From contig NZ_JENB01000024.1 in the NCBI RefSeq assembly GCF_000708715.2, positions 1-64,000 of the forward strand: 64,000 bases of DNA. The letters run 5' to 3'. A program made the position numbers and the translations under genes. This document shows, in pieces, positions 43,826 to 50,327 of this stretch (its first letter is position 1; each line of letters begins with the position of its first letter). This DNA is from Pseudomonas putida W15Oct28. Lineage in GTDB: Bacteria > Pseudomonadota > Gammaproteobacteria > Pseudomonadales > Pseudomonadaceae. A model generated the notes under the pieces. The model worked only from the letters and a program-made list of their open reading frames with translations. It ran no database searches and had not been told where the DNA came from.

Positions 43826-44281
43826 ATGCCCTATGTACCGGTTACAGAGCTTTCGCAATACGTTGGTAAGGAACTGGGCCGCTCCGCCTGGCTGAAAATC
43901 GACCAGCAGCGCATCAACCTGTTCGCCGAGGCGACGGGCGATTTCCAATACATCCATGTCGACCCTGAAAAGGCGGCGAAAACCCCGTTTGGCGGCACGA
44001 TCGCCCACGGCTTCCTGACATTGTCACTGATCCCCAAGCTGATCGAGGACATCCTGGTCCTGCCAGAAGGGCTGAAGATGGTGGTGAACTACGGACTGGA
44101 CAGCGTGCGGTTCATCCAGCCGGTCAAGGTCGACAGCCAGGTCAGGCTGAAGGTGGACCTGGCCGAGGTGGTGGAGAAGAAGCCGGGGCAATGGTTGCTC
44201 AAGGCGATTGCCACGCTGGAGATCGAAGGGGAAGAGAAGCCTGCTTATATAGCTGAGTCGCTGTCGCTCTGTTTCGTCTGA
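43826..44281 (+). CDS. MaoC-like hydratase
   Basis: 151 residues, single hot-dog domain. The hydratase-2 signature is clear: INLFAEATGDFQYIHVDPEKAAKTPFGGTIAHGFLTLSL, holding the catalytic Asp and His. It probably hydrates (R)-enoyl-CoA and could feed polyhydroxyalkanoate monomers, but substrate is not readable. Monocistronic; GGAGAG precedes the ATG. Confidence 0.9.
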   Translation: MPYVPVTELSQYVGKELGRSAWLKIDQQRINLFAEATGDFQYIHVDPEKAAKTPFGGTIAHGFLTLSLIPKLIEDILVLPEGLKMVVNYGLDSVRFIQPVKVDSQVRLKVDLAEVVEKKPGQWLLKAIATLEIEGEEKPAYIAESLSLCFV

Positions 44282-44296
44282 TACACCACGATCTCT

Positions 44297-44411
44297 ATGG
44301 GAGCGGCCTTGCGTCGCGATTGGGCTGCGGAGCAGCCCCAGGTCTCTGCACCCTGCCGAAATTGCCGGGGCCGCTCCGCGGCCCTTTCGCGACACAAGGC
44401 CGCTCCCACAG
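44297..44411. repeat. REPIN, class 2
   Basis: Inverted GGGAGCGGCCTTGCGTCGCGA units after the MaoC gene. With the MITE that follows it fills most of the 390-bp gap before prmA. Confidence 0.9.
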
Positions 44412-44479
44412 GGTCCATCTCTGGTCTTCTCTACAAACCCCCCGCACTCGCGTAAACTGCCAGCCTTCGCGCAGCCTAG

Positions 44480-44633
44480 GGTTTGTACGAAAAGTCGCCG
44501 AGCGGCGATCAGGCAAGGCGAAAACAGGCGAGGAACGGTCGGAGTCGCGCTCGACTTTACGGGTTGTAAATGAGCATTCCGAGCCTGTTTTCAACGCAGC
44601 ATGATCGTCGCGCAGGCACTTTTTGTACAAAGC
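44480..44633. mobile_element. 154-bp MITE with CTAG target duplication (IS5-like ends)
   Basis: The ends are inverted repeats GGTTTGTACGAAAAGTC and (complement of right end) GCTTTGTACAAAAAGTG, identical at 14 of 17 positions. CTAG flanks both sides (44476–44479 and 44634–44637), the 4-bp YTAR duplication type known from the IS5 group. Internally the element is a loose palindrome (GCGAAAACAGGCGAGGAA against TTCCGAGCCTGTTTTCAACGC) and encodes no protein. It ends 38 bp before the prmA ATG and so replaces part of that gene's upstream region. Confidence 0.75.
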
Positions 44634-44671
44634 CTAGGGCTGCCCCTGTCGATTTACCAAAGGTGCCCGCC

Positions 44672-45550
44672 ATGCCCTGGCTGCAAGTACGCCTGGCCAT
44701 CAGCCCGGAACAAGCCGAAACCTACGAAGATGCCCTGCTCGAAGTAGGCGCCGTCTCGGTCACGTTCATGGACGCCGAAGATCAACCGATCTTCGAGCCA
44801 GACCTCAACACCACCCCGCTGTGGTCGCACACCCACCTGCTGGCACTGTTCGAGGCCGATGCCGAGCCTGAGCAGGTGTTTGCCCACCTGCGCCTGCTGA
44901 CCGGCGCCGAGCTGCCACAGCACCAGGCCGAGGTGATCGAGGACCAGGACTGGGAGCGCAGCTGGATGGACAACTTCCAGCCCATGCGTTTCGGCCGCCG
45001 CCTGTGGATCGTGCCAAGCTGGCACGAGGCCCCGGAAAAGGACGCCGTCAACCTGCTGCTGGACCCGGGCCTGGCCTTCGGCACCGGCACCCACCCGACC
45101 ACCGCCCTGTGCCTGGAATGGCTCGACGGCCAGCAACTCGAAGGTACCCAGGTGCTGGACTTCGGCTGCGGTTCGGGCATCCTGGCCATCGCCTCGCTGC
45201 TGCTGGGGGCCCGTGAAGCGGTCGGTACCGACATCGACGTGCAGGCCATCGAGGCTTCTCGCGACAATGCCCAGCGCAACGGCATCGCCGATGAAAAGCT
45301 GGCGCTTTACCTGCCCGAGCACATGCCGGCCATGCAGGCCGACGTGCTGGTCGCCAACATCCTCGCAGGCCCCCTGGTGTCGCTGGCGCCGCAGTTGTCC
45401 GGCCTGGTTCGCCCAGGTGGCCTGCTGGCGCTGTCCGGCATTCTGGCCGAACAGGGCGAGGACGTGGCTGCGGCCTACGCCGCCGACTTCGAGCTGGACC
45501 CGATCGTCGTCCGCGACGGCTGGGTGCGCATCAGTGGTCGCCGCCGCTAA
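44672..45550 (+). CDS. prmA: Ribosomal protein L11 methyltransferase
   Basis: 292 residues. N-terminal L11-recognition domain ([42 protein letters not shown]) and a Rossmann methyltransferase with [15 protein letters not shown] and motif [14 protein letters not shown]. It trimethylates ribosomal protein L11. Start at MPWLQV; an in-frame ATG farther upstream lies within the MITE and is not used by the family. Confidence 0.96.
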
Positions 45551-50145: not shown

Positions 50146-50163
50146 TTTACGGCAATCGGCCGC

Positions 50164-50270
50164 ACTGAAGCAGGCATCTGCTGCGTTGGGGCCGGTTCCG
50201 CTGATGCTCATTGCCAGAAGGCAACTCCGCTCATCGGAACCGGCCCCGCCTTGCATCTACCTGCTTCATT
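50164..50270 (+). promoter_or_regulatory. Long nested hairpin in the purH–purD gap
   Basis: Three concentric pairs: TGAAGCAGG (50166–50174) with CCTGCTTCA (50260–50268); GGGGCCGGTTCC (50188–50199) with GGAACCGGCCCC (50236–50247); TTGCC-AGAA-GGCAA (50211–50224). All arms are perfect. No T tract follows, so it is more likely an mRNA-processing, attenuation or stability element than a simple terminator. Confidence 0.55.
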
Positions 50271-50327
50271 GCGACCTCGTACAGCGTGAGGCTTCGCCTT
50301 GCGCCCGAAAGAATTCGAGGTTTTGAC

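Follow-up and report, generated by a model that had tools for sequence, protein, structure and literature searches.

MITEs are usually regarded as decayed insertion sequences (IS) with idle interiors, and the interior of a MITE is often assumed to derive from its autonomous element. REP elements are handled as single-stranded DNA. They are palindromes tagged with GTAG or CGTC, according to the available text of PMC3733652. The IS427 group (IS1248, ISPpa2 and relatives) is described in the accessible part of PMC3281130 as having 2-bp repeats in 10 of 11 rows, lengths of 832-865 bp and two overlapping frames with a frameshift motif, one member having a natural single frame. MITEPsy1 of Pseudomonas syringae pv. 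phaseolicola is 100 nt long, with GGAAGGTCTGAAAAAGCC ends and a 4-nt duplication (CTAG or YTAA), and MITEPsy1-like sequences have been reported in P. stutzeri, Marinobacter and others (available sections of PMC3189936). The repeats R178, R6, R0 and R2 of P. fluorescens are intergenic; R178, which is 101 bp long and has an inverted repeat inside it, is present in each of the three strains (excerpt of PMC2718517). The Coxiella elements QMITE1 and QMITE2, of about 400 and 190 bp, have stable folded interiors, and QMITE1 is reported in the portion of PMC5896051 at hand to carry an IHF site and to be without relatives in other genomes.

The stretch analysed here (64,000 nt of Pseudomonas putida W15Oct28, hereafter the window) contains an element in front of prmA that a preliminary description had taken for a 154-bp MITE bounded by CTAG duplications. 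Read directly, the sequence starts GGTTTGTACGAAAAGT at 44480, finishes ACTTTTTGTACAAAGC at 44633 and leaves 38 nt to the prmA ATG, exactly the spacing first given. An inverted-repeat finder returned two 40-nt arms (44475-44514 and 44599-44638) with 80% complementarity, and the element folds stably both as RNA (-85.3 kcal/mol; z -9.7 against 200 shuffles) and as DNA (-49.9; z -8.9 against shuffles). The family is present at five places in its own genome. A search for copies in Pseudomonas revealed a dispersed repeat: 220 of 298 genomes of the genus gave a DNA match (own genome counted; some of these matches cover the interior only). Plasmid records contained 14 matches and the phage records searched contained none. 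Arms, fold and dispersed copies confirm a terminally repeated, MITE-like element in front of prmA, which shares with MITEs the terminal inverted repeats, the target duplication, the multicopy state and a related autonomous element with the same ends (Table 1).

Table 1. Features of the prmA element, its surroundings and the second core in the window.
Feature	Position	Strand	Remarks
MITE-like element	44479..44634	+	156 bp with 2-bp target duplication; 44480-44633 (154 bp) if CTAG is counted as duplicated
Left TA target duplication	44477..44478		Inside CTAG 44476-44479
Right TA target duplication	44635..44636		Inside CTAG 44634-44637
Left terminal repeat GGGTTTGTACGAAAAGT	44479..44495	+	Read in the sequence
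Right terminal repeat GGCTTTGTACAAAAAGT	44618..44634	-	Letters given for the minus strand
Conserved hairpin core, long variant	44509..44603	+	95 nt, extra apical segment; model R1, E 1.1e-14
Conserved TAAACT	44453..44458	+	Putative promoter-like -10 motif, upstream of the insertion
prmA, ribosomal protein L11 methyltransferase	44672..45550	+	TIGR00406, E 6.7e-91
Second hairpin core, between purH and purD	50177..50258	-	E 2.4e-12
Whole palindrome round the second core	50158..50276	-	Ends unlike those of the prmA element

The target site was read from 92 distinct copies in which a script placed both ends with at most three mismatches per end; failures were left uncounted, and orthologous insertions with differing flanks were entered separately. 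TA flanked the element on both sides in 53 of the 92 copies. In all 53, the base inside the TA was G on the left and C on the right, the base outside varied (left C33, T17, G2, A1; right G32, A20, C1), and only 17 were CTAG/CTAG. The flanks of the remaining 39 copies were decayed, shifted or different. Because the inner G and C are invariant and the outer bases variable, the element duplicates TA within YTAR and is 156 bp long (44479-44634). The CTAG duplication initially proposed is therefore not supported and copies without it exist, the boundaries themselves agreeing among copies. The YTAR preference comes from the present copies and not from the available text of PMC3281130. In 11 of 67 named copies (L126, L130, L131, L133, L141, L148, L151, L155, L156, L188 and L190), the start of the element was the stop codon of the upstream gene, as called by a crude gene finder; such insertions are as expected if TAG stop codons provide YTAR sites.

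The start of prmA was matched in 38 of the 57 genomes searched (own genome counted), and 30 loci were read, including that of the window. The start was recognised in 29 of these loci, among which that of the window is the only one to have a core within 300 nt of it. A GTAAACT-like motif stands 41-84 nt before the prmA start in all of the other 28 and 220 nt before it in the window, upstream of the insertion. A scan for sigma-70 consensus sites near prmA found none. An empty site was present in three near relatives (L037-L039), which carry GCAGCCTCGGGCTGCC unoccupied; the window splits the same site into GCAGCCTA...TAGGGCTGCC, with one base differing. The GTAAACT-like motif is a putative prmA promoter. 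Since it stands upstream of the insertion, the element would lengthen the prmA 5' leader by about 157 nt and leave the promoter in place, so that of the two roles first suggested for it, promoter or leader, the latter is retained. Translation from an ATG at 44570, which lies within the element and in the prmA frame, would extend the protein by 34 residues; use of this ATG is disfavoured by AAAGGTG before 44672, which is conserved in many relatives. A REP-like long inverted repeat (44300-44406; 40-nt arms, 88% complementary) lies between a MaoC-like gene and the prmA element.

Two IS elements of the same genome (L067 and L068) have CTAG-flanked ends, [GT]CTCTGTACGAAA, that deviate slightly from those of the prmA element. 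Each has its transposase in two frames, and the frames of L067 give matches to NCBIfam IS5_3 and to Pfam DUF4096 and DDE_Tnp_1. Insertion sequences with the same ends as the prmA element were found in relatives (L106-L108 and L116). One of about 0.94 kb lies in G259, a genome that also carries a 99%-identical copy of the prmA element; its 283-aa IS5_3 transposase is uninterrupted, its ends are GGCTTTGTACGAAAAGT and GGCTTTGTACGAAAACC, and its flanks, like those of the other IS with these ends, are of the YTAR kind. The IS of G291 measures about 0.91 kb; its ends are GGTTTTGTACGAAAAGTCG and GGCTTTGTACGAAAAGT, and its transposase occupies two frames. The final transposase codons of these IS fall within the terminal repeat. 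The TA duplication, the size and the IS5_3 match suggest that the ends of the prmA element, and the IS that share them, belong to the IS427 group of the IS5 family, and the IS of G259 and G291 are likely helpers of the prmA element. The IS5-family origin assigned to the ends in the preliminary description is borne out by these IS and their transposases, which also make probable the mobilisation by an IS5-group transposase that it proposed.

The interior of the prmA element is palindromic, as first described, and is also conserved far outside the element, which could not be seen from the window itself. When the whole element was searched for across the class, 31 of 369 genomes gave a match, mostly in the interior only, and reading of these loci showed the same hairpin within other outer arms. 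In an alignment of 25 sequences, the core consists of CAAGGC, a stem, GA/GA, a stem, GSA/GA with a bulged A, and a final stem and loop, with AACGC opposite. The core model has 81 positions and 26 pairs, of which 14 have changed on both sides. Pairing was found in 96.9% of cells in the 25 sequences from which the structure itself was derived, and double-change cells numbered 67, whereas shuffles averaged 19.8 and slid versions never exceeded 17. In 73 rows from loci outside the model, with the alignment fitted to the model, 89.7% of pairs were Watson-Crick, 4.9% were G-U and 5.4% were neither. The 17 internal-loop and bulge columns of these rows had a mean of about 1.6 bits against 1.07 for paired columns, and the GA, A and AAC loop bases on the 3' side reached 1.58-2.0 bits; all unpaired columns together (1.09 bits) equalled the paired ones, because the apical loop and the edges vary. 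The flanks of the core, taken ungapped over 45 positions on each side, did not exceed 0.93 bits and were mostly below 0.5. A literature search returned no description of the core, which is weak evidence of absence, most subscription journals lying outside the search.

Across the phylum, model R1 matched 94 of 398 genomes and 39 of 212 genera (own counted), in a scan with stricter filters and at most 11 candidates scored per genome. The copy number rises to 127 in one Pseudomonas. The 2-Mb genome G784 contains 148 cores and 331 forward and 318 reverse matches to the end sequence (control, 0); its elements L302-L311 are 121 bp long, with a shortened core and GTAACTGCTCAG ends. By reading, the core is surrounded by no fewer than nine distinct end sequences: GGGTTTGTACGAAAA in the window; CAGGCTGTTGAAAAA in L200, L201, L208 and L232; GGGCGCCTCTAAAAA, with variants, in L205, L209, L212 and L217; CCTACTGTGTCACAA in L204; GAGCCTGTTCACGAT or GAACCTGTTCAAGAT in L222 and L207; AGAGGGTGTTTACAAA in L241 and L247; TAGGGCGTGTTGACATT in L257 and L258; AAGGAGCCTCTGATTAA in L196, L251 and L321; and the ends of L302-L311. 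Several of these types are known from one copy each, and in the scan of 86 loci for end types the script found no core in 13 and arms too weak for trust in several others.

Ends of core-bearing elements were traced to three types of IS, all IS5-related. In addition to those of the prmA element, CAGGCTGTTGAAAAA ends occur on the IS5-family loci L289 and L291 (L291 scores above the cut-off of the IS5_4 model, and L289 is a fragment below it), and GAACCTGTTCACGAT ends, with one base changed relative to the core-bearing type, occur on the Moraxella locus L320, annotated as an IS5 family transposase with a broken frame. Searches for an autonomous IS behind the GTAACTGCTCAG ends of G784 and the TAGGGCGTGTTGACATT ends of G743 and G754 recovered no transposase frame; the contigs of G743 break at this end. 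Single-arm searches of plasmids were informative for CAGGCTGTTGAAAAA, GAGCCTGTTCACGAT and CCTCTGATTAA ends and gave chance-level matches only for CCTCTAAAAAT and TGTTGACATT ends.

Different ends were also found round nearly identical cores in one host. On the Halomonas replicon NZ_CP040452, L321 with CCTCTGATTAA ends and L322 with GGGTTTGTACG ends have cores that are 93% identical, and the same two end types in G683 accompany cores that are 94-95% identical. Elements with the same ends in different hosts have cores 78-86% identical (seven pairs); where the ends are of the window's type, the range is 80-85%. Among Pseudomonas cores, two with CTCTAAAAAC ends are 93-95% identical to that of the window and one with GAGCCTGTTCACGAT ends is 84% identical to it, these identities all being computed with gaps omitted on few, author-chosen pairs. 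Cores that are alike despite different ends in one host are predicted by an exchange of ends, but not if the elements simply descend from a single IS. An unsystematic look among the loci read turned up no intermediate that combined an old end with a new one.

The account that we consider probable is that a non-autonomous hairpin core rides on resident insertion sequences by exchanging its ends. The outer part of the prmA element, made of IS427-type repeats of the IS5 family, would be recognised in trans by a resident IS427-group transposase, which would insert the element at YTAR and duplicate TA. The inner part, a core hairpin of some 81 nt that was not found in the IS-type loci examined, would stay constant across a dispersed family whose members have different terminal repeats in different hosts and sometimes within one host. 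The core would thus be the real unit of inheritance, picking up an end from any active insertion sequence. As the element is a long palindrome, DNA repair or template switching may rewrite one arm after the other, which would turn a single acquired end into a pair, and the element with paired new ends could then spread through that transposase. The hairpin itself may be kept for an action of folded DNA, as a cruciform or as a single strand at the replication fork, that aids spread or tolerance. Our confidence is high for the description of the core and its elements, moderate for end exchange and lower for the role of the hairpin.

The alternative that survives best, though unlikely, is that the pairing is kept without selection by hairpin-templated correction, one arm being copied onto the other in a family that is merely old. 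The 67 double-change cells with few single-side intermediates would fit such correction. So would blocks like CGGTCGGAGTCGCG, which occupy the left arm of certain copies, other copies having them inverted on the right arm or on both arms (L131, L135, L161 and L196); they are consistent with copying between arms, which may also turn one acquired end into two. However, correction of this kind would erase the mismatched loop positions, and most of these are strongly conserved. Moreover, most mismatches persist where the stem has been replaced, as in the second core of the window. There, the long stem differs (GGGGCCGGTTCCG vs CGGAACCGGCCCC), while CAAGGC, the GGA/GA loop, the bulged A and AACGC are kept and the outer GA/GA loop is altered. 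The outer ends of this second core are TGAAGCAGG, and it may be an old fixed copy. As the origin of arm symmetry, templated correction may nevertheless form part of the end-exchange account.

It is distinctly unlikely that the core is instead a structured RNA (a small RNA, a leader regulator or a processing site) made from flanking promoters, a reading to which the stable fold, the tandem GA internal loops, the bulged A and the location of the core in the prmA leader would lend themselves. A crude gene finder placed the 67 named copies between co-directional genes (++18, --8), converging genes (11) and diverging genes (19), inside a gene (1) or at an edge (10). The 18 of 26 copies between co-directional genes that share the gene direction would suit an RNA, but 18 versus 8 gives p of about 0.08 (calculated by hand), and 30 copies lie between diverging or converging genes. 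No Rfam 15 family reached the gathering score in window positions 44250-44750, where all sub-threshold matches fell on the REP-like repeat, and none reached threshold at 12 loci, where the two sub-threshold matches, of microRNA type, were both in L275. G-U cells (38) were no commoner than A-C cells (34) in 95 rows with one conserved G-T pair omitted (p 0.72, indicative only since the rows are related). Because selection on an RNA should favour G-U, the pairing looks like a matter of DNA, and a hairpin acting as RNA was rejected on these counts.

A bias towards one replication strand, expected if single-stranded lagging DNA matters, was sought in four single-contig genomes with the midpoint taken as the terminus, dnaA-like frames being recognised by eye at the contig start in G265 and G113. 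The counts are among the matches listed (104 of 127 in G265, 46 of 70 in G113, 70 of 83 in G202 and 80 of 94 in G078). On contig C1 of G265, the first half had 12+/31- and the second half 40+/21- among the matches listed (p 0.0003), and the halves of G078 had 20+/25- and 24+/11-, again among those listed (p 0.04). G113 and G202 showed no replication-strand bias among the matches listed (p 1). The bias was therefore present in two of four genomes only, and the expectation was set aside.

An ordinary MITE, formed by internal deletion of an IS427-group IS and left with a leftover or random, functionless interior, would account for the ends, the TA duplication, the multicopy state and the IS with the same ends. 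This reading is already hard to keep and we hold it to be very improbable: the core was absent from the 55 loci fetched for IS5-type transposases or IS ends, which speaks against an interior taken from the autonomous element, and it covaries, extends over many genera and occurs with other ends. Equally improbable is a separate mobile hairpin inserting into the centre of unrelated IS-derived palindromes: core and arms do act as modules, but no core-free palindrome with these arms was seen among the own-genome end matches listed, which were core copies, IS or IS remnants, or singles near the control number (34 vs 24).

The exchange of ends by a hairpin core might extend to a wider generalisation, which we advance tentatively and think somewhat less likely to be right than wrong: a class of mobile DNA found throughout the Proteobacteria in which the heritable unit would be a folded DNA hairpin, the ends would be disposable, the core would outlive the transposases it exploits and the hairpin would perform a conserved step as single-stranded or cruciform DNA. 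In the elements described here the interior is conserved and the ends are variable over 39 of 212 sampled genera. If ends are indeed exchanged, this would explain how non-autonomous elements persist after the extinction of their helpers, and the core may unite under one name repeat families that have been described strain by strain. A defined DNA hairpin that retains its loops through replacement of the stem would then give a clean handle on the host or transposition factor by which it is read. The hairpin carries a caution too, in that a covarying hairpin in a genome is not necessarily an RNA.

Taken alone, the prmA element adds one more ordinary member to the MITEs; what makes it a new variant is the interior, a structured core common to elements with different ends. 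Like the IS427 group, the IS found here have a TA duplication, a size of 0.91-0.95 kb and a match to NCBIfam IS5_3, whereas the prmA element has no transposase and an interior not found in the IS-type loci examined. MITEPsy1, as far as its available description goes, is likewise a small Pseudomonas element with IS5-like ends, but the ends and the length of the prmA element, by which alone the two were compared, differ from it. The size and repeat structure of R178 would fit the core, a likeness by published description only, from the excerpt available, that serves as a lead. QMITE1 and QMITE2 resemble the present elements as MITEs with a stable folded interior; in the text available, their sizes differ and QMITE1 has an IHF site, in contrast to the shared hairpin of the elements studied here. 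Finally, REP elements and the core are alike as conserved hairpins dispersed in bacterial genomes, but in the 25-sequence alignment the core differs from REP and BIME sequences in having an invariant CAAGGC beside the stem and no GTAG or CGTC tag, and it lies inside terminal repeats with a target duplication.
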